Part shown: positions 6,068 through 59,600 of the stretch, one piece after another
How the letters are laid out: every line of letters starts with the position of its first letter
How positions within the stretch are numbered: position 1 is the first letter of the stretch
DNA from: Chrysogorgia sp. JL179-B06
Lineage: Eukaryota; Cnidaria; Anthozoa; Scleralcyonacea; Chrysogorgiidae
Length of the DNA stretch: 64,000 bases
Reading direction: 5' to 3'
NCBI GenBank assembly: GCA_035772405.1
Contig: JAYKKM010000337.1
Coordinates: 2,169,501-2,233,500 of the forward strand
Notes under the pieces: generated by a model
Databases searched by the model: none
What the model was told of the DNA's origin: nothing
What the model saw: the letters and a program-made list of their open reading frames with translations, nothing else
Position numbers and translations under genes: made by a program

Positions 6068-6152
6068 CATCTGAGTCTTGGTAGCTCAATGGTTAGAGCG
6101 TCTCACAGGCAATCAGAAGGTTACAGGTTCGATTCCTGTCTGGGACTCAGAA
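6068..6152 (+). mobile_element. tRNA-derived SINE head (tRNA pseudogene)
   Basis: The segment folds as a tRNA. The acceptor GAGTCTT pairs with GGGACTC, the D arm is GCTC/GAGC, and the T arm ACAGG-TTCGATT-CCTGT is perfect. The A box (TAGCTCAATGG) and B box (GGTTCGATTCC) are both present. The anticodon stem has a mismatch and position 33 is not T (loop CAGGCAA), so this is more likely a SINE head than a working tRNA. A reverse-strand relative is at 13,870-14,010, and head-only tandem copies lie at 21,360-21,735. Confidence 0.75.
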
Positions 6153-9200: not shown

Positions 9201-12200
9201 GAGTACTGATTGGCTGCAAAGATGGCCTCTCTTTTTCAACAGTTGACGCTGCTAACGTTGGTGATGTGTTTGTCGTTGTTGGGTGCAATGTTGGAGTTGT
9301 TGAAGGTGGAGTTGTTGAAGGTTGAGTGCCTGAAGGGAAAGCGGAGTGTATTGAGGGACTGGGGTTTAAAGTAAAGATACAAAGGGCAACAAACCAACTA
9401 TATTTGGTTTTCATTCACCCACCCATCCACAACCACTCATCCACACAACCACCCATCCAAATACCTACACACCCAACTATCCATTCGTCTATCCATCCAT
9501 CACTTTACATTCCACTCTTTAACGTCGAGCATTAGATTCCCTACACACTATCTTGGCCGGCATTACACAACCAAATACCCATTCAACCAACCATCCACCG
9601 ATCCATGCATGCATACAACCCACCCATCGATCAATCCAATCACGCATGCATCTATCCGTCCGTCCGCCCCTCCGTCCATCCGTCGGTCGGTCGGTCGGTC
9701 CGTCCGTCCATCCGTCGGTCGGTACGTAGGTCGGTCGGTCCGGCCGGCCGGTCGGTCGGCCGGTCGGTCAGTCGGTCGGTCGGTCGGTCAGTCGGTCGGC
9801 CGGCCAGCCAGCCAGCCAGTCGGTCCGTCCGTCCGTCCATCGCACCACCCATATATGTTCCTCCGTTTAAACAAGCTTCACTTACCTTGACAGTTAGCCC
9901 GCCATTTGTGGTTTCCTTCAGTTATTGCAGAATTTAAACTCACAGCACACCATGGTCCCTTCATCTCATCATTTGTCGTGATGCAGTCGCTATATAGAAC
10001 CCCATCGTTGACGAACGGAAGAACGCAGCATCGACCATCCACTGTGCGACGTCGGCAGTTCTCAGGAGCTAAAAACAACCAGAAACAAAAAAGTTCAAAT
10101 ACGAGCAATTTGTAAAATATAGCATGATCTCTATAACCATTGAGACACTCTAACCATTGAGACACTCTAACCATCGAGACACTCTGCTGTAGTGAATGGA
10201 CAGATAATGTAGTGCTTGGAGTAGACAGATAATACATGGACGATCGTCATGTTCAGTTTTATTACCTGTATATGTTCCAGCAATTTTAGTCATGATGCAA
10301 TCGATTTTGTTGTCTTGTAAACATGGAAAGAGATCAAGTCTCATAACCAAGCCTTGGTGAGCGTAAATATCGTTGCTGTTTGATGTCCACTAGAATAGAA
10401 TAACCGAAAGAGAAAAAGGCAAGGAAGATTAGTTACTTGTGGATTGATGTGTATGCAGATTTGTCCAATTTCGACGCCATATTTGTTTCTCAAATATGAT
10501 ATCACTGAGTGCTTCCATCTCGTATTATGCCTAAGCAGCTCATCTACTTTCCTACTTTAGTTTATTTCGACTAATAGTAATTCTCCTCCAAAGATCATTC
10601 ACAACAGCTATCACTATGTGATCGCCATCAAAACAACTCCACCACCGATAAAGAAGCACTCAATGACGTCATATTTTCAAAATCAATATGGCGGTCAAAA
10701 TCCTCAAATTTTCAACTTCAACTAGCCATATCTTCTTAACTAAATTGATAGGAATACTGAAACTTTGGAAATAAACTAAAGTCAGTAAGATCTTTTATAT
10801 GAACTTCATTTGTATTTTGGCTGGAGTAAAACCATATAATAATTCCAATAATTTTATAACATTACATCGAAATCACAAGTAATCTTGGTAAGATTAATCT
10901 TGGTAAGATTGTGAAAGGGGTGTTGGTGGCACAGTGGGTAGCACACGTGTCTTTCACCTCTGCAATCTGGGTTCGATTCCTGCTCAGTGCAGTTATCAGA
11001 TCAAATATTTCGCCTTGGTCGCAAGTGAGAAGAGTGCTTCCAGTTTGACTCTACCAAACACCGCAGGTTTTCTCCGGGTACTCCGGTTCCTCCTGTAATA
11101 ACACTCATGGACCAATGAGGGTGGCCCTTACTGGACCTCTAGGGAGAACAGTTTAATGACTGATAGGGTTATGCAGTATAAATAAAAGTTAGTTTAGTTT
11201 AATGTTACCTGCAGTAAAAATAGTGGACCTGTCGAGTTGAATACAGCATTGAGTTGAAATTCAATCCCAATTTTCTTCCACTGTTTTGTGCCGGGTATTT
11301 GAACGAAAGCGACAATCTCAAGACATCCGGGATTAGGAAAGTGGACACCAACTTGTAAAGTTATGTTGCCAGAATGAGTCAAGTCAACTATGATAGGTGA
11401 AGGGAACCCACGTTTTCTATATTTCTCCTGATGAATACTGCGAAGACCACGACATCCTAGAAAGATATGATTAGAAATGTGAAGGTCCAGGTTACAGTCA
11501 TAGTCTTGAGAGAGAGTGTTGATGGTGACAGATGTTTCGGCGGCCTGTGGTCAGAGTCAAGTGAAAAGTGTTGTTCAGGTTCGCTTATATCTGGTTCATT
11601 AGGTCGTATTTTGTAACATGTAGGTTGTTGCGTCACTGATCTCAAAAATAGGACTGGATTGAGCTTTCTATTGTATCTGATGAGCTGATTTTAAAGCTTG
11701 CATATTTGCATAATAAATTGACGAGAGATCATTAGAAGCTCCGAGTTTGCAAGCAAATCAAACTGTGACGCTCGCGAAATTGGTTTTGTGTTTGGCCAAT
11801 ATAGTTTCTTTGTTAACATTAAATGCATAAAATCTTGAACCTAATTTGACGTCTCATATCAGGCTTCTCTCACTGGATAATTAGAGTCAACGGCGGCCAT
11901 TACTAAGGGACCAAAGTCGCAGTAAATCTGTAGGTAGGCCATGAATCGTTTTACCCAGTAATTTGAAAAATGTCTTCTGGTCCTCTTTATAGTAAAATTA
12001 TTTTATTTTGTCGATGGTAAGAACACACTCGTTATACTGAATTCCCAATCCCGACGCAGAACGCGTCATTTTGACGCGCAGTCGACATTATACGAACTGG
12101 CTTAATAGGCTTACAATGGACTCCTAACAACATCAAGGACATCACCATTTTTTTAACATCAAGGACATTACTATCAAAATTTATAACAAACAACGTTTTT

Positions 12201-16802: not shown

Positions 16803-17297
16803 CTTCAGTTAAAATACAAGTGTAGTTCATATGAAAGATCTTACTGACTTTAGTTTATTTCCAAAGTTTCAGCATTCAAATCAATTTAAGTTAACAAGAT
16901 ATGGCTAGTTGAAGTTGCAGAGTTTGTCCAACTTTCGACGCCATATTGGTTTCTCAAATATGACGTCACTGAGTGATTCTATCTCGTATTATGCCTAAGA
17001 AGCTCCTCTACTTTCCTGCATGAGGAACTAAATAGTTTATTTCATCCAAATTTTCGTCCAAAGAGCACTCACAACAGCTATCACTATGTGATCGCCATCA
17101 AAACAACTCCACAACCGATAAAGAAGCACTCATTAATGGCATCATATGTTTAAAACAAATATGGCATCAAAATCCTCAATTTCAACTCGCCATATCTTCT
17201 CAACTAAATTGATAGGAATGCTGAAACTTTCGGGATGAAGTCAGTCAGATCTTTCAGTAAGAACTTTATTTGTATTTTGGCTTGAGTAGTCCTTTAA
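16803..17297. mobile_element. TTAA-type foldback MITE, nearly full-length
   Basis: Arms beginning AGTTCATATGAAAGATC and ending GATCTTTCAGTAAGAAC are inverted repeats of each other around a centre near 17,060. The right end (AGTAGTCCTTTAA) finishes in TTAA. The same family is intact at 54,076-54,560. Confidence 0.8.
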
Positions 17298-17654
17298 ATG
17301 AGGGTACAGTATGTCTAATAATAATCACAGGAAGTTCAGGAGATGTTGATGAGGAAATAGCAAGACATTAGGGATTACTTAGCAACTACAGTGATTGTTC
17401 ACACAACAGCAGTCCCAACACAAACACAAGTCAAGCAACCTTTTAAACTTGGAGAAAGTCTACAACGAAATTTCCTTACACTTACCATGGGGATAATAAA
17501 AACACTTTCTACTATCTATGCACTTACACCACCAAAAGACCAGGAGCGACGGAGCAGGGGCCCCCAATGAAACAGAAGTAACATCTCATATATATCTCAA
17601 ATCTACAAGCCAAAAAGTCCAACTGTTTGTCCACAACTAGTATTATATATATAT

Positions 17655-19350: not shown

Positions 19351-32390
<13,040 letters not shown>

Positions 32391-38068: not shown

Positions 38069-41000
38069 TCATTCGTCATTATCAGGGAGTATAAGCCGTG
38101 AGGCTCCGTGATCGAGAGTAAAAAAGTCTTCTTTTCGAAATTCCATTTTCGTCTAATGCTTTCTTCAGTTCCTTAGGTGGCTCCATGTAATGCTAGTCAA
38201 GGAAAAAGATCGTGGTTAAACTTAAAGTGAACACTGGAATGGAAATGAAATGACACTCAGACAAGATCCTGCAAGACTATTTATCAGTTGGATGCTATCT
38301 AAGATCCTTGTAGGATCCTGCTTTATCCTGACTATCTAAGATCTTTGTAAGATCCTGCTTGATCCTGAACTATCTAATATCCTTGTAGGATCGTGCTTGA
38401 TCCTGACTATCTAAGATCCTTGTAGGATCCTGCTTTATCCTGACTATATAAGATCCTTGTAGCATCCTGAAAAGATCCTGCTTGATCCTGACTATCTTAA
38501 AGATCTTGCTTGATGCTGACTATCTTAAAGATCCTGCTTGATCCTGACTATCTTAAAGATCCTGCTTGATCCTGACTATCTTAAAGATCCTGCTTGATGC
38601 TGACTATCTTAAAGATCCTGCTTGATCCTGACTATCTTAAAGATCCTGCTTGATGCTGACTATCTTAAAGATCCTGCTTGATGCTGACTATCTTAAAGAT
38701 CCTGCTTGATGCTGACTATCTTAAAGATCCTGCTTGATGATGACTATCTTAAAGATCCTGCTTGATCCTGACTATCTTAAAGATCCTGCTTGATCCCAAC
38801 TATCTTAAAGATCCTGCTTGATGCTGACTATCTTAAAGATCCTGCTTGATGCTGACTATCTTAAAGATCCTGCTTGATGCTGACTATCTTAAAGATCCTG
38901 CTTGATCCTGACTATCTTAAAGATCCTGCTTGATGCTGACTATCTTAAAGATCCTGCTTGATGATGACTATCTTAAAGATCCTGCTTGATCCTGACTATC
39001 TTAAAGATCCTGCTTGATCCTGACTATCTTAAAGATCCTGCTTGATGCTGACTATCTTAAAGATCCTGCTTGATGATGACTATCTTAAAGATCCTGCTTG
39101 ATCCTGACTATCTTAAAGATCCTGCTTGATCCCAACTATCTTAAAGATCCTGCTTGATGCTGACTATCTTAAAGATCCTGCTTGATGCTGACTATCTTAA
39201 AGATCCTGCTTGATGCTGACTATCTTAAAGATCCTGCTTGATCCTGACTATCTTAAAGATCCTGCTTGATGCTGACTATCTTAAAGATCCTGCTTGATGA
39301 TGACTATCTTAAAGATCCTGCTTGATCCTGACTATCTTAAAGATCCTGCTTGATCCTGACTATCTTAAAGATCCTGCTTGATGCTGACTATCTTAAAGAT
39401 CCTGCTTGATGATGACTATCTTAAAGATCCTGCTTGATGCTGACTATCTTAAAGATCCTGCTTGATCCTGACTATCTTAAAGATCCTGCTTGATGCTGAC
39501 TATCTTAAAGATCCTGCTTGATGCTGACTATCTTAAAGATCCTGCTTGATGATGACTATCTTAAAGATCCTGCTTGATGCTGACTATCTTAAAGATCCTG
39601 CTTGATGCTGACTATCTTAAAGATCCTGCTTGATCCTGACTATCTTAAAGATCCTGCTTGATGCTGACTATCTTAAAGATCCTGCTTGATCCTGACTATC
39701 TTAAAGATCCTGCTTGATGCTGACTATCTTAAAGATCTTGCTTGATCCTGACTATCTTAAAGATCCTGCTTGATCCTGACTATCTTAAAGATCCTGCTTG
39801 ATGATGACTATCTTAAAGATCTTGCTTGATCCTGACTATCTTAAAGATCCTGCTTGATGATGACTATCTTAAAGATCCTGCTTGATGCTGACTATCTTAA
39901 AGATCTTGCTTGATCCTGACTATCTTAAAGATCCTGCTTGATCCTGACTATCTTAAAGATCCTGCTTGATGCTGACTATCTTAAAGATCCTGCTTGATGC
40001 TGACTATCTTAAAGATCTTGCTTGATGATGACTATCTTAAAGATCTTGCTTGATCCTGACTATCTTAAAGATCCTGCTTGATGCTGACTATCTTAAAGAT
40101 CCTGCTTGATGCTGACTATCTTAAAGATCCTGCTTGATCCTGACTATCTTAAAGATCCTGCTTGATCCTGACTATCTTAAAGATCCTGCTTGATCCTGAC
40201 TATCTTAAAGATCCTGCTTGATGCTGACTATCTTAAAGATCCTGCTTGATGCTGACTATCTTAAAGATCCTCAAGAGATCCTGAAAATCCTTTAGGGAAG
40301 GTCATACTTGATCATGACTGAGATCCTTGGGAGATCCGGTCAAGATCCTGAAGAGTCCTTTAGGGAGCTTGACATGCTTTCTCTTATCCTAACATCCTGG
40401 CGTGATCCTATCACTATCTTGATCCTGAATGCTACAGACTTAATACCTCGTAGGTCAATGCAAATGTTCCCCAATGAATGCCGAGCGATTTCTTTGCCCT
40501 AAGATCCTGATGGATTTTCACAGATTCTTCTGGATTTACATGTTGTTTTTTCATCATTTTCCTGAACAAAAGAAAAGAGATAACATTGACATGCCAATCG
40601 CTTTTGATGAGAATTAACATTGCAGTTACAAGCTTTGAGCTTCAAAAAATTTACATTGTTAAGCTTAATAAGTTTTAATACCTGGGTTCATAAGCTCCTA
40701 TAGGTATTGCTGCTAGGTCGATAGGACCAAAGCGATGACCAATTTGCTTAAAAGCATCACAGTAGCCAGTATCGCCAGCAAAGTAGTATCGATATCTTGC
40801 ACCTAGTATAGTCCAACTACCCCAGAGTACTTTATTGGTATCAAACAGACCACGATTACACCAGTGCTTTGTGGGTGTAAAAACAAATCTCATTGACACA
40901 TTCTTGCCATTTTCCAGTCTTTTTTCCAGCACTTTTTCATCCCACCAATCCATCTCAATGACATTAGTACAGCCTGTATCAATCATCCACTGCTTCAAAC

Positions 41001-47697: not shown

Positions 47698-49682
47698 CTA
47701 CAGTCTTGTCCAGTACATGCTACCACGTATCCGATTGTAGTCTGGTAGTTGTTCCACTGGTCCTGTAGAGAAAGATATAATGACATAGTATAGCAAAGGG
47801 GAAGCATATAGCATAGATAACGTAGGTGTGATGTAACAGCGTATTTATAAAGCTCATTGGATTATGGCAAAATGTAATATGAATTACGTAATGTAACGTA
47901 ACATAATGACGTATGTAATGTAACATAATGACGTATGTAATGTAATATAATGACGTAATGTAACGTAACATAATGACGTAATGTAATTTAATATTACCAA
48001 TAGCAGCAATAGCAGGACAGCGGTCGTACAGATATTTCGTCGCGACTTCTCTCACAGTTTTAGAGTCAATCATCTAAAGGAAATATATCAATATCAAGAG
48101 TGGTTTAGTGGTTACCACACATGTCTATGAGCTGGGAGACACAGGTTCAAATCCTGGGTCGGACCACCACTCAGGGTCTTAAAAATAATCGAGGAGAAAG
48201 TACTGCATTTGTAATAATATCAGCAAATGGTAAGACTTTCGCATAGGCCCTCGGAACCCTTATCATACATAAGGCTTCTAGCCTGTTGGGGATTCCGTTC
48301 ACCTAAAAGAGTGATAAATCTGAAAAACTAAAAAAAATAAACATTATACTTATTCTCTCGCACTTACATCCAGCCTTTTATCCAATTCTGGCAGAGGAAT
48401 TCGCCGACCATAGGTTAGCATTTGTCTAAATACCGAAAAATACTGCGAAATTGAGAAATCGTGAACCCAAGATTTGAGTAAGAAGAAATATGAAATCAGC
48501 TAAGTTCTCAAAAGAACTGGATATAATATGAAAAGGAGTCTTCAATGACGTGTCGGAAAATATTCACGAACCTTCCAATGTCTTCACAAATGGGCGTTGA
48601 ACCTGAAGTTACAAGAGTAGGTTTGTTTACTTGGATTACTTCGGCTGATTAATCGGAATGTGTAAAGGTAGTATTATCTGTGTGAATCAGATGAAGGGTG
48701 CTTACCGTCAAGTTGAAACAGCATATTTGTCTTAAGAATATTACGAGCTCTTTCGACTTCCGCGTCAGTGATACTGGTACAGATTCTCATCCTAGAAAGT
48801 TAATTATTGAAATAATTAACACTCAGCTCCCCTCACTTCGCCCCACGATGCTTTGAATTTTTCTAGTTGCTATTTTTCTAGTTGTTATTTCTAGTTGCCA
48901 TCAGTACATACCAATCTTTTTGGACGGCATAGACAAGATTATCAATGGTCATTCTATCACACACCATATATATACCCCTACGAGAGATATAGATAAAAAT
49001 TTTAAAGAGCTTTAGCGATAAAAAAGATACCTTCTTTTATCAAATCGTTTGGGGAATGTGGATCTTCCTGAGCAAAATCATAATATATCTTGTCAGCAGA
49101 ATATTTCATCTTCATGGACTTTTTTGCTGTCAAAGGTACCGGATGTAATGTCACAAGAGGCATTCCAAACCAGTTTTCTTTTGTTACTTGCCACAAAAAT
49201 GCCTCTTGTGGCATCACATCCGGTAACTTTGACAGCAAAAAAAGTCCATGAAGATGAAATTTTCGGCTGAAGATATATTATGATTTTGCTCAGAAAGACC
49301 CAAATATTACGGATATGTAAAGATAGAGAGAGATAGATAGAGAGATATAGAGCGAGAGATAGCGAGATAGATAGAGAGAGATAGAAAGAGAGAGAGATGG
49401 AGAAAGAGAGAGATAGAAAGAGAGATAGGGAGAGATAGAGATAGAAAGAGAGAAAGGGAGAGATAGAGAGAGAGATAGCAAGATAGATAGAGATAGATAG
49501 ATAGAGATAGATAGATAGATAGAGAGAGAGATAGAGAGATATAGAGCGAGATATAGAGAAATATAGAGCGAGATATAGCGAGATAGATAGAGAGAGATAG
49601 AAAGAGAAAGAGAGAAAGAGAGAGATAGAAAGAGAGATAGGGAGAGATAGAGAGAGAGATAGCAAGAGAGAGATAGATAGAT

Positions 49683-49719
<37 letters not shown>

Positions 49720-52700
49720 GAGATAGAGAGATATTGAGCGAGATATAGAGCGAGATAAGAGAAAGAGAGAGATAGATAGAAAGAGAGAGAGAGCGAGATA
49801 CAGAGAGATAGAGAGAGAGATAGAAATAGAGAGATATATTTCTCAGGGAGAAACAGAGAGATAAAGAGAGATAGACAGAGATAGAAAGAGATAGACAGAT
49901 ATAAATAGAGAGAGATAGAAAGAGATACAGAGAGATCCCCAAACGTGAGATAAGCACTTTAATGCCAACTTTAGTATAACCGTATCAACGAGTTTCAAAA
50001 TCATACTTTGCAATTTTTCACTTCAAGATATTGTTCACTTCAAGATTCACTTCATTTTTGAACAAGATAAGTACTTCATTCTGTTACTTACCACAGCCCT
50101 GTATCAGTGTAACATGTGTTGAATGACATAAAACTGTGAGCTAAATTATGGTGCGCCACATCCTAGGAAATGACAAAGATAATATTGAGTGCATCAAATT
50201 TTGATGTTAAAATTCATAAAAAGTTACTTAGGGGTCTTAGGCCCATTTCAAACGTTGAACTAAATGTAAATTCAAGCTTATTTACAAGTAATAAAACGTG
50301 TTGTGCTGCATAGGTAGTGTAGAAATACAAATATCTAAAAAGGTTGGTGTACTGCCAAAATAGCATGTAAGTTTTTAAGTCTAACTTTTTGAGCGAAGGA
50401 AAACGTAGTTTGAGATTTGAAATGGATCCTAACCGATATTGAATTCATACCTGTGATAACTTGCTGGAAATATTATGTGCACCACTAAACGAACGATCCC
50501 AATTACCAACCAACTAAAAACAAACATAGGGGACTCAGAATAATGAAAAATTGCTTTGTTATTTCAATAAGGAAAAAATCTGACTTCTAAGGGAACTGCA
50601 GTAAAAATAAATTACTTTTAAATAAAAGGCCTTTAAGTATAATGTTTAGAAATGTTAATGGTTTTAAGGTATCTGTTCTCGTACTCGAGAAATAACGTTT
50701 TCATTCTCGTATTTTATGCTCTCCACACCGCTATTTCATGGCCCGTTTACACAGGTGATTTTTCCTGCGACTTTTCTCTTTTTAACACATGCGATCGAAT
50801 GGATTGTCATACAAATGTATTGATTCCCAATTTGTGCAGATCTATGACATTCAATACTTTAGTGAGTCATCCACTATATCGCATACGTGAGGGTCAGAAA
50901 AATCGTAGCAAAAATCGCCTGTGTAAACGAGTCTTTAGAGTTTGATATATACTGTAGCTGTGTGCTTTTGCTTCTTACATTCAATGATGTCAAAATAGAA
51001 AAGAAACCCCCACTGTACTGTTAATCGAGTTTGAGCGGTCAAGCATCCAGAAGCATAACATACGAGAATGAAAACGTTATTTCTCGAGTACAAGAGTAGA
51101 TACCGTAAAACTATTAACATTTCTAAACATTATACTTAAAGGTCTTTGATTTAAATTTATTTTTTATTACAGTTTCTCATGCTGTATGTAATGCTGGGTC
51201 AGAGTCAGTTGAACTCACCACATTGGCCACCATTAAAGCAAAATAATCTGGATGTGTCCAGCCACACCCTTCAACAGCCATTGCAATATGTGCAAAGGGC
51301 ATATCATCATTACGAAGACGAATCTAAGACAATAAAAATATGCTGATAAGTCTTATTCTATTACATGTATGACCAAAAACCATCTATGTTTATCAAACAA
51401 GGTACTCAGTACCTCACTGCCAGTGAATCTGCAAGGTTCTGGAACATCGGCTTCCTCGTACGTTGAACGTAGTCCACTAAATTGTTTCTCAGCAAGTTTC
51501 ACTAATGCATCATGATCTACCCCTAAACAGAATGAGATAATGATAACTAAGTAAACTATCAAAACACATGTACTGTAGTTAGTAGTACTGGTGTATCACT
51601 TATAGACTGCATCTTGTATGATTGTTAAAACCTTTAATTACCTCCAGCGGCTGCTAAAACCATTCTTGGTGCACTGTAGTGTTTGTTGATATAGGCCAAA
51701 AGATCATCTCTTTTTATACTCCTGATAGAAAAAAAACACATTATAAATGCCGGAAGTTTTTAACATTTGTTTCAATATTCTTTTTCAAAGATCTGTTTCA
51801 ATTGCAAAACTAAAAACTACAATCTCCAGTCCTCTGTAAGTCCTGCCAGGGGTAGCATCAAAACTGTAACCTGACTAGCTAACTCTCATTTTTTCAAATA
51901 CAGTTTGTATACTGTATATCAATCTCCAATCAAGTAAAAGTTTCAAGACCTGACTGCTGTAATGTATACAGTATGTCCCATGGAAAGAAGAATAAAATAA
52001 TGCTTCAAAATGTCACTATTTTCCAATGTTTCAGGGTGTTGCTCTGAAATTTCCCAGGGGGGTGTTATCTTGTAATTGTAATTACTTACAGTACTTGATA
52101 TTTTCAGTTGTTCCTAAGATAGTTCTTCCCAGGGGGGTGTTAGCTCGTAATTCTTTACTTACTTGATATTTTCAGTTGTTCCTAAGATAGTTCTTCCCAG
52201 GGGGGTGTTAGCTCGTAATTCTTTACTTACTTGATATTTTCAGTTGGTCCCAAGATGGTTCTTCCCAGGGGGGTGTTACCTTGTAATTATTTACTTACTT
52301 GATATTTTCAGTTGGTCCCAAGATGGTTCTTCCCAGGGGGGTGTTACCTTGTAATTATTTACTTACTTGATATTTTCAGTTGGTCCTAAGATGGTTCTTC
52401 CCAGGGGGGTGTTACCTTGTAATTATTTACTTACTTGATATTTTCAGTTGGTCCCAAGATGGTTCTTCCCAGGGGGGTGTTACCTTGTAATTATTTACTT
52501 ACTTGATATTTTCAGTTGGTCCTAAGATAGTTCTTCCCAGGGGGGTGTTACCTCGTAATTATTTACTTACTTGATATTTTCAGTTGGTCCCAAGATGGTT
52601 CTTCCCAGGGGGGTGTTACCTTGTAATTATTTACTTACTTGATATTTTCAGTTGTTCCTAAGATAGTTCTTCCCAGGGGGGTGTTAGCTCGTAATTCTTT

Positions 52701-55700
52701 ACTTACTTGATATTTTCAGTTGGTCCTAAGATAGTTCTTCCCAGGGGGCTGTTAGCTCATAATTATTTACTTACTTGATATTTTCAGTTGTTCCTAAGAT
52801 AGTTCTTCCCAGGGGGGTGTTAGCTCATAATTATTTACTTACTTGATATTTTCAGTTGGTCCTAAGATAGTTCTTCCCAGGGGGCTGTTAGCTCATAATT
52901 ATTTACTTACTTGATATTTTCAGTTGTTCCTAAGATAGTTCTTCCCAGGGGGGTGTTAGCTCATAATTCTTTACTTACTTGATATTTTCAGTTGGTCCTA
53001 AGATAGTTCTTCCCAGGGGGCTGTTAGCTCATAATTATTTACTTACTTGATATTTTCAGTTGGTCCCAAGATGGTTCTTCCCAGGGGGGTGTTACCTTGT
53101 AATTATTTACTTACTTGATATTTTCAGTTGTTCCTAAGATAGTTCTTCTCAGGGGGGTGTTACCTCGTAATTCTTTACTTACTTGATATTTTCAGTTGGT
53201 CCTAAGATAGTTCTTCCCAGGGGGGTGTAACCTCTGTTTACTTACTTGATATTTTCAGTTGGTCCTAAGATAGTTCTTCCCAGGGGGCTGTTAGCTCATA
53301 ATTATTTACTTACTTGATATTTTCAGTTGGTCCTAAGATAGTTCTTCCCAGGGGGGTGTTAGCTCGTAATTCTTTACTTACTTGATATTTTCAGTTGGTC
53401 CTAAGATAGTTCTTCCCAGGGGGGTGTTAGCTCGTAATTCTTTACTTACTTGATATTTTCAGTTGGTCCTAAGATAGTTCTTCCCAGGGGGGTGTTAGCT
53501 CGTAATTCTTTACTTACTTGATATTTTCAGTTGGTCCTAAGATGGCTCTTCCCAGGGGGGTGTTACCTCGTAATTCTTTACTTACTTGATATTTTCAGTT
53601 GGTCCTAAGATAGTTCTTCCTAGTGCAGTTCCTTGGTAAGCTGTAGCATGTAGATGATCAAATATTACTTCTTCTAATTGAGTATCAACTTCCTGTGAAA
53701 AAGATGAAATATATTGTAAGGCTTCCAAAGGTTTTATAGATATTAAGTGGTTTACTGGTCATATATAAAAGCAGTGCTCAAAATAATTTTGGCAAAGTCG
53801 CCTGTCAGCATGACCAGTCAGACATGAATTCAGGTGGTCAGATCTAAAATTTGGATGGTCAATTATTTTTTCTTTAATTTGTGCATTAAAAACAAAAATC
53901 TTCTTTCCTTCTATAACTTTGTATCAGTAAAGAAGGCCATGAACGTTCGATCATCATTTCTGCTGCCGCCATTTTGACAGCAACTTCCATCCCAGGGCTT
54001 TTGTTTAAAGTTGAAGTCAACCCCCGGTGCGACAGCTTGGCATCAAATGAAATATAATTTTCAAGTTCTTATTTCCTTGTTTAAAGAGACACTCCGGCCC
54101 AAATACAAATGCAGTTCATATGAAAGATCTTACTGACTTTAGTTTATTTCCAAAGTTTCAGCATTACTATCAATTTAGTTGAGAAGATATTGCTAGTTGA
54201 AGTTGAAAATTTGAGGAGTTTTACGCCATATTGGTTTTGAAAATATGACATCAGTGATTCTTTATCGTCAGTGGAGTTGTTTTGATGGCGATCACATAGT
54301 GATAGCTGTTGTGAATGGTCTTTGGACGAAAATTAGTCGAAATAAACTATTTAGTTCATCATGCATACGAGATCACGTCACTCAGTGACGTCATATTTGA
54401 GAAACAAAATGGCGTCGAAATTGGACAAACTCTCCAACTTCAACTAGCCACATCTTCTTAACTAAATTGATAGGAATGCTGACACTTTGGAAATAATCTA
54501 AAGTCAGTAAGATCTTTCATATGAACTACATTTGTATTTGGGCCGGAGTGTCCCTTTAACCAATAAAACTAAGCAGCCTTTTAAAACCTTTTTAAGGTGC
54601 CACCTGTTAAAGCCATTTGCTGACTTTAGTTCATAAATTAATGATATAAACAACGTTTACAAGGTACTGTAAAAGAAAATGAGTTCACTGATAAAAATAA
54701 TCTGACCAAAATAATTTGACCGCAAATCAAGAAAATCAGCAGTCAGCTTATCTCCCGTTATTTTGAGCACTGTAAAAGTATGCATTATTCAATAAAACTC
54801 ACCTGCATTTCACGTAAAATAACACCTCTTTCCCTCTCGATTTCTGGTTCCCCCAGTTTGGAATGTTGAATGATATCAGCCAAGATATCAACAGCTAAAA
54901 AAAATAATAATTGATTGAAATTGTTGAAAACAAAAATGAACATTTGTAGGTTACATATGATGGACATAATTTTTGGAGATATGGCGGCCACACTAACTTT
55001 GTTCCATATCTTTCTCAAAACATTTTGCGTAATAAACAGTTTGTTCCCTTGATGTGTATGCATTAAGGTGTGCACCGGCATTTTCTACTTCCAGTTCTAA
55101 TTGCATTTGGCTTCTTCTTTGGGTTCCTTTGAAAGCCATGTGCTCAAGGAAATGGGCAACGCCATTATTTTGCTCTGATTCAAATCGGCTACCAGCGTCA
55201 ATCCACAAACCAACCTGTAAAACAAAAGTGGCTGCACTTCATTTGCCAGCCAGGGTACGGAATGTACCCCCAGCATGGTCTCACAGAAATGGTTGATGTG
55301 TCCGCATAAGGTCGTCAAACTATAACTGATTGGCATAGCGGTGCGTGTGCCAAAAAGTGATTGGTGTTTCTGCTTTATTTTGTTACTTGTTTATATTACT
55401 TTCAACCTCGTCATAAGGGTCTTGTGTGTTTTAAAATTAGCCACAGGAAGGCACCTCGATTTTCAAATGCCTATAATTACACAATCTCGGCATGTCCTCG
55501 GTTCTTATGTATTGCATAATGTTGGCGTGGCGTTTCGAAGTATTTGGCGTGTTTACATGGAATAAGCTTCTGTATAGCCAAATGCTGATACCACCAGTGT
55601 GGAGCATACATGGAATCCAGGGTGAATACATGTAAACTTTATGCCGGACATACGCCGAATACTTCCGAACGCCACGCCAAGATTACGCAATATAAAAATG

Positions 55701-56516
55701 GGGGTCTGGGGAGAGTGATAGTCACACTGAGATTTTAGGCATTTGAAAACTGAGGAAATAACATGCCTTCTTGCTGCTTAATTTCTAAACACACAAGAAC
55801 CTGAGGACGAGGTTGAAACCACTATTGATATGCCTAAACAAGTAACAACATAAAGCAGAAATCACTTTTCGGTGCCGTGCTGCTATGCTAAGCCCTTATA
55901 GTTTGACGATCTTACGCCGGCACGCCAACCATTTTCACAAGTCCACCCCCGGAGATCTCCAGTGTGGAGTACAGGGACGTAGCCCTAAGGCCATGATGGT
56001 TGTCTTTGACAAGTGAGATAACCTGCCATAGCACAAGAAAAATAACAAAAGGACTGTGTCTGTCATAATGTACAATAAATAAATTGTCTTCAAATACATG
56101 CAACAGTTCCTGGAAGTACTTATTTGACTCACAGTAGCTGTTGGAATTCCTGAATTTTCTGAAGCCACTTTCAAACCATTTGTAAGAGTTGAAACTTTCG
56201 TCTCGGGAACATTATACAACGACTATAATTTTAGCAAAAACAAAAAGTTAGAAACTCCACTAAAACACGTAATAACGATTCTTTTCCAATATCTAAACGT
56301 GTCTTACTTCTTGATAGGCCGCCGAAGTACTGAGATATCGTGCCACGTTAACCTGCGAAATACGAGCAAAAATACTATTTTTCTAACAGAATTACCAACT
56401 TAGATACGTAGAAAAACATATAAAGAAGCGTCTACCGTTAACAAATGTACCTTTTGGTTGTGACGGAGCAAAGAAGTAACAGAAAGGCTTCGTAAAATGG
56501 GAATTTTCGACGCCAT
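47698..56516 (-). CDS. PMPCB: Mitochondrial processing peptidase beta subunit, complete 17-exon gene
   Basis: Catalytic beta subunit of the matrix protease that removes presequences from imported proteins. Exons: 56451-56516, 56308-56352, 56133-56222, 54998-55214, 54803-54894, 53586-53692, 51642-51721, 51413-51522, 51219-51323, 50451-50513, 50092-50162, 48912-48977, 48706-48791, 48572-48602, 48368-48425, 47998-48073, 47698-47762. These join in frame to 475 residues (human 489). The N-terminus [15 protein letters not shown] is a presequence of its own. Exon 4 has the inverted zinc motif [11 protein letters not shown] and [13 protein letters not shown]; exon 5 has [13 protein letters not shown]; exon 6 has [18 protein letters not shown]; exon 10 has VGNWDRSF. 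The last exon ends GSMYWTRL. Several introns carry MITEs. Intron 6 holds the 68-bp splice-site array. It is divergent from PSMA5. Confidence 0.97.
47880..47992. repeat. TAATGTAACATAATGACGTA minisatellite
   Basis: Units of about 25 bp combining AATGTAACGTAACATAATGACGT, four to five imperfect copies, in the last intron of PMPCB. Confidence 0.85.
48090..48325 (+). mobile_element. tRNA-derived SINE, compact copy
   Basis: A box TGGTTTAGTGGTTACC, B box GGTTCAAATCC, then the body shared with 30,010-30,340 (AATAATCGAGGAGAAAG; CAGCAAATGGTAAGACTTTC; AAGAGTGATAAATCT). It lies in PMPCB intron 15. Confidence 0.85.
49024..49960. mobile_element. Foldback MITE split by a GATA/GAGA microsatellite
   Basis: The left arm (TTTTGCTGTCAAAGGTACCGG; AAGAGGCATTCCAAACC) and right arm (GCCTCTTGTGGCATCACATC; TTTGACAGCAAAAAAAGTCC) are inverted repeats. 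The terminus should read ATGTAAAATCCCCAAACGTGAG as at 62,915-62,932. Here GATATGTAAA is followed by about 620 bp of GATA/GAGA repeat (49,320-49,937) before CCCCAAACGTGAGATAAGC resumes. It lies in PMPCB intron 11. Confidence 0.88.
50325..50410 (-). repeat. 'GGTTGGTGTACTGCC' repeat, degraded copy
   Basis: AATATCTAAAAAGGTTGGTG and TACTGCCAAAATAGCATG match the copies at 62,120 and 63,440. The hammerhead-like end is decayed (TTTTTGAGCGAAGG). It lies in PMPCB intron 10. Confidence 0.7.
50590..51170. mobile_element. Large foldback element (0.58 kb)
   Basis: The left arm AAGTATAATGTTTAGAAATG...CTCGAGAAATAACGTTTTC pairs with GAAAACGTTATTTCTCGAG...CATTTCTAAACATTATACTT. It lies in PMPCB intron 9, about 50 bp from exon 51219-51323. 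A fragment lies at 7,390-7,500. Confidence 0.88.
52040..53585 (-). repeat. 68-bp exon/splice-donor minisatellite in PMPCB intron 6
   Basis: On the minus strand, 22 tandem units of 68 bp follow exon 6 directly. Each begins with the last 35 bases of that exon (GGAAGAACTATCTTAGGACC...AATATCAA), continues with GTAAGTAAA, the same 5' splice site, and ends in AACACCCCCCTG. The real exon end at 53,586 is the 23rd copy of the motif. GTAAGT is retained in nearly all units. The outermost copy near 52,095 has a few extra bases before it. Reading past any donor gives an immediate in-frame TAA (AAG TAA). Confidence 0.96.
54076..54560. mobile_element. TTAA-type foldback MITE, intact
   Basis: Left TTAAAGAGACACTCCGGCCC and right GGGCCGGAGTGTCCCTTTAA termini, arms pairing for about 190 bp (TTCATATGAAAGATCTTACT; TCAACTAGCCACATCTTCTT). 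TTAA target duplication. It lies in PMPCB intron 5. Related to 16,803-17,297 and 10,445-10,860. Confidence 0.92.
55265..55915. mobile_element. Large foldback element (0.65 kb)
   Basis: TTTATTTTGTTACTTGTTTA...TTTCAACCTCGTC on the left pairs with GACGAGGTTGAAA...TAAACAAGTAACAACATAAA on the right. Inside, GGCGTGGCGTTCGGAAGTAT-type arms form a second inverted pair (55,520-55,680). It lies in PMPCB intron 3. Confidence 0.85.
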
Positions 56517-56689: not shown

Positions 56690-59600
56690 ATGTTCTTAAC
56701 GCGTTCAGAATACGACAGGTAGGTTGTACTTTTTCTCAGTAGTGTCAAAGTCTTTCAATTGATATTTGCACTTAATATATCTTGTATCTCTTTTCCCAGG
56801 GGGGTTAATATCTTCTCTCCAGAGGGTAGGATCTTCCAAGTTGAATATGCTATTGAAGCTATAAAGGTAATGCGTGTAGAAGTGTGAAGTATAAGTCTGA
56901 CTTCTTCAGAGTCAAGCTAACGCTGTTGAAACATCAATCACCAACAATAGTTAGTCTTGAGAAAGACTATTGTTGGTGACTGAAGTAGCAGACTGTCATC
57001 TTCAGAGTCAAGCTACGGCTGTTGAAACAGTCACCAACAATAGTTAGTCTTGAGAAAGACTATTGTTGGTGACTGAAGTAGCAGACTGTCATCTTCAGAG
57101 TCAAGCTACGGCTGTTGAAACAGTCACCAACAATAGTTAGTCTTGACTCTTGAGAAAGACTTAGTTGTTGGTGACTGAAGTAGCAGTCATCTTCAGAGTC
57201 GAGCTACGGCTGTTGAAACAGTCACCAACAATAGTTAGTCTTGAGAAAGACTTAGTAAGACTTAGTTGTTGGTGACTGAAGTAGCAGTCATCTTCAGAGT
57301 CAAGCTACGGCTGTTGAAACAGTCACCAACAATAGTTAGTCTTGAGAAAGACTTAGTTGTTGGTGACTGAAGTAGCAGTCATCTTCAGAGTCGAGCTAAG
57401 GCTGTTGAAACATCAGTCACCAACAATAGTTGCTCTTGAGAAAGACTATTGTTCGTGACTGACATTTTGATGGCCTTAGCTGTGCAGTTATCTTCACAAA
57501 CAACTTCTAAAGTCAACTTTACTCTGCTGAATGGCTTCCATTACTTTCTTTTAGCTTGGATCAACGGCCATTGGGATTCAAACATCTGAGGGTGTTGTGC
57601 TAGCAGTGGAAAAGAGAATTACCTCCCCTTTGATGGAAGCATCGAGCATAGAGAAAATTATTGAAGTAGATAGTCATATAGGTAAAGCATTAGGCTTTAA
57701 ATAAAGATTGGTTGGCACTGGTTGGAACCATTTTAATCATATGTTTCATCAATTCTAGGTTGTGCTGTTAGTGGTCTTATAGCAGATTCTAGAACTATGG
57801 TTGACAAAGCAAGAGTGGAAGCACAGGCATGTAATATTAAAACAAGGATCAAGCATGATTCTGTTCTCCTTCACTTTTATGCCCCAGGAGTGATCAGCAT
57901 CCAACTTCTCCTAATAATATCAATGGTTAACCAAGCACAGAAGTAATGAGAATAAAGGAAATGATCACCAAAGATAAACTGATACCCCACGATGCTTGTG
58001 AGCTCCAACAACATCTTTAAAACAACTTCTCCCAACTAGTACTATAAGAAATGTTTCCATATTGTATTTAACACATCTCTAAAATTTTAATTTATATATA
58101 AATGTTGTTATAAATGTGCTATGCGAATTATATTCCCTGGATTGAGTTATTATAAAGCTCTTGAACTCTCCACTCTCCCAAGATTAGACATTAGACGCTC
58201 CAAACTTTATGATACGTAAACCAAGTAAACACGATTCAAAATTTCTTTTTCATTTAATACCGCCATCTAGAGAGCAGGTGCATAATCGTAACTTGCTAAA
58301 TAAAGATCGTCCATCACTTTTTAAATGCCGCACCAACTGTTTTGGGAAATTGTTTTTTTGCTTCAATGAGCTTTTAGAACTGCTTTTATACTGTAGGTGT
58401 ATTATAAATCTTTGTATATATTCTTATATAATTATTACCTCTTTCTACATTTAATTGATATTGATGTTTAAGGATCCTTCATCTCTTTTGTAAACGTATT
58501 GCAATTCACGGTTCACCGTGCGATATGTATTTTTTAATAAAACCTTCATTAGTATTATTATGTTTAGAATCACTGGTTTACTTTCAATGAGCCAATGCCA
58601 GTGGAAAGTGTCACCCAGGCTGTTTCAAATGTTGCCTTAGAATTTGGTGATGACAATGCCAAAGCTGGAGCAATGGTTTGTCATTAATTTCATTTCCTAA
58701 TCTACCAAGCTGAATAGTGAATTAACAATATATATATATATATATATTATACCTCAACTATAAATTGTCCAATCAAAGAGCTAGATTTGTACCACGTGAC
58801 CAGTCAATTTAAACTCAAATTTCCCGCTTTAACCTCGAATTCCCCGCTGATGACGTCATCAGCAGGTAATTTGAGTTCGAATTCCCCGCTGATGACGTAA
58901 TCAGCGGGGAGTTTGAATACCCCTCTCGTACCCAGTACTCGCACGTAAACCAAGACGAGCCTGTAAACAATGGAGGAACAACAAGACGTTTCTAGACGTT
59001 TCAAGACAGCATTCAAGATTGTTTCGGTATAATATATCATTTATAGACCCTCCGCCCGGGGAATTTGTTGAAATATTACCCCTCGGGATGATATATCCCT
59101 CGGGCTTCGCCCTCTGGATATATCATCCCTCGGGGTAATATTTCGTTGAATTCCCCTCGCTCCGGGTCTATAAATGATAAATATACCACTTAACGCTCAT
59201 GCATAGACATTTAATATATGTAGGTTTATTTGTGATATGATAATACAGTATTGTATGGTAGACAATACATACAATTATGGTAAATAATCTTCAGCTAACA
59301 CCCCAAAGTCTACCAAACATGTATTGAAATATCGGATATTTTTATTAGAGTCGACCTTATGGAGTTGCATTGCTGTTTGGAGGTTTTGACGAAAATGGAC
59401 CTCAATTGTAAGTGTTAATTATTAAATGTTGCATTTGGAATGCCTCTTGTGACATCACATCCAGTAACTTTGATGGCGAAAAACTTCATGAAGATGACAT
59501 TTTCAGCTGATAATATATATTATGATTTTGCTCAGGATGACCCAAATATTATGGATATGTAAAATCCCCAAACATGAGATAGGCTCTCTAAAACCCACAC

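Follow-up and report, generated by a model that had tools for sequence, protein, structure and literature searches.

The PMPCB gene and its exon 6 to exon 7 segment

The window, by which we mean the whole 64,000-bp stretch of DNA that was analysed, carries on its minus strand the gene PMPCB, whose product is the mitochondrial processing peptidase beta subunit (MPP beta). Its series of exons, which descends from position 56213 to position 47704, was found by tblastn of the window with a human PMPCB sequence as the query, and reading of the exon flanks gave 16 donors for the gene. Among the best 120 of 7,649 protein matches, the assembled PMPCB protein is closest to P0001 of Xenia sp. (88% identity, 100% query coverage), which is from an octocoral, and the matches listed after it include proteins of Porites, Nematostella and Exaiptasia; an octocoral is accordingly the likeliest source of the window. 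The query protein had S at the exon 4/5 junction, for which the splice reading gives T, a difference that leaves the identification unchanged.

The segment of concern here is exon 6, intron 6 and exon 7. Exon 6 encodes 35 residues and the first two bases of a lysine (K) codon, and it ends with CAA directly before the donor GTAAGTAAA, with the junction in phase 2. The features of this segment, all on the minus strand, are as follows.

53586..53692, minus strand: PMPCB exon 6, 107 nt (tblastn with human PMPCB; spliced translation of exon 6 and exon 7)
53577..53585, minus strand: first donor, GTAAGTAAA, in an uninterrupted frame with exon 7 (spliced translation; Xenia P0001 has the same protein context)
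51722..53585, minus strand: PMPCB intron 6, 1,864 nt, GTAAGTAAAGAA...TTTTTCTATCAG
52051..53623, minus strand: 68-bp minisatellite, comprising the exon copy, 21 units with intact donors (one of them 63 bp), a distal 75-bp unit with an altered donor, and a terminal CTGGGAA (TRF and unit listing)
52154..53517, minus strand: total span of the 21 additional intact GTAAGTAAA donors of intron 6
52056..52130, minus strand: 23rd and distal unit, 75 bp, whose altered donor reads AAGTACTGTAAGTAATTAC (unit listing)
52044..52057, minus strand: distal edge of the array, where CTGGGAA is followed by the unique intron sequence ATTTCAG; CTGGGAA resembles the CTAGGAA of the exon edge (53617-53623)
51642..51721, minus strand: PMPCB exon 7 (tblastn, reading of the flanks and spliced translation)

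Architecture of the array

The minisatellite begins at the end of exon 6 and fills approximately the first 1.53 kb of intron 6, and each of its units consists of the end of exon 6 (35 coding bases), the donor and the start of intron 6. TRF reports the array with a 68-bp period, 22.8 copies and 94% matches (52078-53620), and it is no chance match. By exact counting, GAAAATATCAAGTAAGTAAA occurs 22 times, with 20 of the 21 spacings equal to 68 bp and the other equal to 63 bp. Intact GTAAGTAAA donors likewise number 22, with starts that run from 53585 down to 52162, and one of these is exon 6's own whereas 21 are extra donors within intron 6. The consensus donor is therefore present in 22 of the 23 units, the first being that of the exon itself, and the donor most altered in the array is the one at its distal end, where the 23rd unit lacks GTAAGTAAA at the equivalent place. 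Homology on the exon side begins with CTAGGAAGAACT, on the intron side it ends with CTGGGAA and then ATTTCAG, and CT(A/G)GGAA is common to both edges.

An initial annotation of this locus had correctly named the gene, the exon number, the donor, the unit and the stop codon, and the 35-base exon part that it proposed is borne out by the unit listing. The row of equivalent donors that it described is likewise present, but its count of about 23 should read 22, given that the donor of the distal unit is altered.

Predicted outcomes of splicing from each donor

When exon 6 is joined to exon 7 from the first donor, the translation reads ...GPTENIKSIKRDD... without a break, and the counterpart in Xenia P0001, ...GPTENIKSINRED, has no insertion. 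On the basis of this uninterrupted reading frame, splicing from the first donor is predicted to give normal MPP beta. Splicing from the later donors has a different outcome in translation, with a stop directly after ENIK in 21 of 21 cases. The same is true of reading past a donor, where an in-frame TAA is met at once (AAG TAA), as the initial annotation had claimed. An alternative product with a premature stop, which is a feature of poison exons, is thus obtained from every one of the 21 later donors, and a transcript made from any of them would be expected to be degraded. Some use of the later donors probably occurs, at a level that would be tolerated.

Variation among the units

Column counts and distances between units were obtained from the 21 units of 68 bp, out of 23; these exclude the 63-bp unit and the distal 75-bp unit. 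Among these 21 units, 11 of the 68 columns are variable, and none of the variable columns lies within the donor (columns 37-45). Given only 11 variable columns, which affords low power, invariance of all nine fixed donor columns would arise by chance with P = 0.18; for six columns the chance is P = 0.33. The longest stretch free of variation, columns 21-45 (25 columns), takes in the exon end together with the donor and includes 16 coding bases; its probability is borderline (P = 0.066, or 0.105 without the exon copy). Variable columns are divided evenly between the exon-derived part (6 of 36) and the intron-derived part (5 of 32; Fisher P = 1), and the six changes in the exon part, read by eye from the columns, comprise three synonymous and three non-synonymous ones.

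The earlier proposal that the donor is kept while its flanks vary is therefore literally accurate for 22 of the 23 units, but invariance is no less complete in the 16 coding bases that precede the donor. Its stronger form, in which the donor bases are more conserved than the rest of the unit, is not supported within the array at the P values just given and at the low power that they carry. At this power the units yield no positive evidence of selection on the donors, and some selection may yet act on them.

Neighbouring units resemble each other more than units in shuffled order do, with a mean of 3.0 differences for adjacent units versus 3.7 for all pairs (P = 0.027, 21 units). The exon copy differs from unit 6 at one base.

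Origin of the array and alternative explanations

We consider it likely that the array is a passive minisatellite, produced by tandem duplication across the boundary of exon 6 and intron 6 and subsequent local expansion, and that it has no role of its own. Exon CTAGGAA and intron CTGGGAA would have formed a 7-base near-repeat, with some 70 bp originally between its two copies. Either slippage or end joining at this near-repeat could have duplicated the exon end, the donor and the intron start, after which unequal exchange or slippage on a local scale would have raised the unit to 23 copies. Duplication at the boundary would imply an ancestral state with a single donor followed by ...CCCCCCTGGGAAATTTCAG. 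The model builds on three observations, namely the repeat units themselves, the match between the two array edges and the greater likeness of adjacent units; the presence of CT(A/G)GGAA at both edges of the array is what would be expected from duplication between short near-repeats and later local expansion. Neutral expansion in tandem from a seed at the exon boundary had been offered in the initial annotation as the simplest alternative, and it proves to be the best fit. Tandem repeats are also common in this stretch of DNA, since 7,359 of its 64,000 bp lie in 14 TRF intervals that measure 100 bp or more after merging, the PMPCB array among them (the intervals were chosen and merged manually from the TRF output). 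A search for a dispersed source of the unit within the 64,000-bp window gave short or weak matches only, none of which spans the unit; the best match outside the array is 25 bases at 84% (59280-59304), and an exact 14-base match to the array edge lies at 56792-56805. Two points count against the passive origin, namely the borderline 25-column invariant run at the exon end and donor, and the little power that the tests have with only 11 variable columns. Furthermore, sequence alone does not explain an array that is free of cost, because competition with the first donor would be expected from 22 identical donors that share its exon context.

This expectation is the starting point of an alternative in which the later donors take a share of splicing, their products stop after ENIK and are degraded, and the length of the array sets the output of MPP beta. 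The 22 intact and identical donors and the stop that follows ENIK from all 21 later ones are in accord with such an arrangement. The copies should also be recognisable to the splicing machinery, given that U1 pairing of the array donor (-5.1 kcal/mol) is tied for 9th-10th among the 16 PMPCB donors, with eight stronger and one equal over the nine bases compared. However, the donor bases exhibit no significant excess of invariance, and we regard this arrangement as unlikely; it is kept open mainly because equal donors normally compete in splicing. A copy-number-dependent drag on productive splicing may exist. The more specific idea that natural variation in array length determines what share of the PMPCB pre-mRNA is productively spliced is, in our judgement, rather improbable; if it were true, presequence processing in mitochondria would be a quantitative trait under the control of a minisatellite. 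The same row of donors might instead act as a platform for U1 snRNP, which would suppress premature cleavage and polyadenylation within PMPCB or titrate U1. We consider this highly improbable, despite the clustering of 22 U1-type sites in about 1.4 kb and the presence of AGTAAA, a weak variant of the polyadenylation signal, inside each donor. Among ten polyadenylation hexamers sought on the gene strand of intron 6, nine are absent, AATAAA and ATTAAA among them, and the tenth, AGTAAA, is present 22 times as a component of the donors. In addition, the nine-base U1 pairing of the array donor falls below that of eight other PMPCB donors, and titration by a single gene seems too small to matter. 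Of the functional roles proposed in the initial annotation (poison exon, U1 titration and protection from polyadenylation), what endures is the stop codons, and the present analysis adds no further positive support.

Two further readings concern what the unit itself encodes. Were AAG/AACT of each unit to serve as an acceptor, the array would hold a repeated micro-exon that adds in-frame insertions of 30 nt, or 10 residues. The consensus unit does have one AG, preceded by CTAACACCCCCCTGGGAAG, at 30 nt upstream of the donor, and when the typed consensus unit was compared with 14 PMPCB acceptors by pyrimidine fraction and context, its value of 0.625 equalled the lowest of the 14 (0.625-0.8125). 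Yet GGGAA directly precedes this candidate AG, splicing between consecutive units would excise only 38 nt, and the insertion would fall in a highly conserved segment, with TILGP found twice in none of the 120 listed homologues. The best internal AG is thus weak by both pyrimidine fraction and context, the unit offers no other than weak candidates, and we give a repeated micro-exon almost no credence. The other reading holds that the unit includes a longer, diverged copy of the exon, in which AAC ACC CCC CTG encodes NTPL, and that the array derives from a version of the exon that was older or otherwise different, rather than from intron sequence joined at the near-repeat. A 16-residue in-frame stretch of the unit aligns with the human PMPCB query at 15 of 16 positions, and LG is preceded by TP in 46 and by TA in 61 of the 118 homologues with the site found (of 120 listed). 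Against this, the window's own exon and that of Xenia have GTAL, NTPLG occurs in 0 of the 120 listed homologues, the identity between unit and exon drops abruptly upstream of CT(A/G)GGAAG, and the same stretch continues into unique intron at the distal edge of the array. A diverged copy is accordingly very unlikely in our view, and it would be contradicted if an array-free octocoral intron 6 were found to have AACACCCCCCTGGGAAATTTCAG shortly after a single donor. Since GTAL is present in the window's exon and in Xenia and NTPLG is in none of the 120 homologues, we think that the in-frame likeness of NTPL may be put down to coincidence at a C-rich stretch. Even so, an origin by duplication at the boundary does not explain why the unit's upstream part resembles PMPCB proteins in frame (TPL).

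Comparison with known systems

Human IFI6 (6-16, G1P3) has minisatellite units of about 12 bp, which give rise to small in-frame extensions. Set beside the human case, the PMPCB array is unusual in the length of its unit, which is 68 bp with 35 coding bases, and in the immediate stop that follows from every extra donor. A unit of 68 bp nevertheless falls within the range of roughly 10-100 bp for minisatellites of the IFI6 kind. In both genes the minisatellite units supply multiple donors, which in PMPCB are recognised from the sequence alone and in IFI6 are used in mRNA; PMC4526556 describes two downstream repeat units of IFI6 that serve as splice donors, with three mRNA species as the result. 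Turri, Cuin and Porter 1995 (Nucleic Acids Res 23:1854), by its title on an IFI6 minisatellite that supplies multiple splice donors, is cited in PMC2572611 and in PMC4526556. Judged by its array and donor features, the PMPCB array is best filed as the same kind, with IFI6 as its closest precedent.

The duplicated segment in PMPCB crosses an exon/intron boundary and carries a splice signal, which is a feature of intron gain by tandem duplication. For a potato RdRp gene, PMC4974935 describes a new intron that arose by tandem duplication of a segment spanning the intron 1/exon 2 boundary, and there too splice signals were copied along with the boundary. The potato gene gained an intron, whereas PMPCB, as read in genomic DNA, has about 22 added units across a donor boundary. 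PMC4974935 also cites the fission yeast genes SPOG_01682 and SOCG_00815, in which 24-bp exonic repeats with AGGT came to hold introns, and intron gain in the same fission yeasts is, by its title, the topic of PMC3629103. These cases share with PMPCB the multiple tandem copies of a short segment with a splice signal, but the yeast repeats are purely exonic.

The PMPCB array offers a natural experiment in the choice of 5' splice site, with 22 identical donors and one acceptor. Their contexts are near-identical over 35 nt of exonic sequence and are mostly 68 nt apart, such that the effect of position alone could be assessed among equal donors. The array also illustrates how an exon boundary may seed a minisatellite.

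Other repeats and features of the window

Several further repeats lie in or near PMPCB. A 22-bp minisatellite of about five copies (47874-47986) starts about 11 nt past the donor of PMPCB exon 16 (near 47997), and no exon sequence was seen in its units. A 93-bp tandem array of about six copies (56903-57462) precedes the predicted start codon of PMPCB by a few hundred bases. Within PMPCB intron 5, the stretch at 54068-54573 can be aligned with its own reverse complement at 75%, and sequences related to it lie at about 10460-10827 and 16812-17298; together these are possibly a MITE-like family.

Elsewhere, a minisatellite at 38295-40271 repeats a 28-bp unit about 64 times with great regularity, and a 37-bp array is present at its left edge. 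At 21495-21674 a 91-bp unit occurs twice and includes the tRNA-like stretch GTAGCTCAATGGTTAGAGCATC, for which ARAGORN makes no tRNA call, and for this reason the unit may be SINE-derived. ARAGORN does call a tRNA-Ala with anticodon GGC at 6075-6148, an anticodon that is unusual for this tRNA in an animal nuclear genome.
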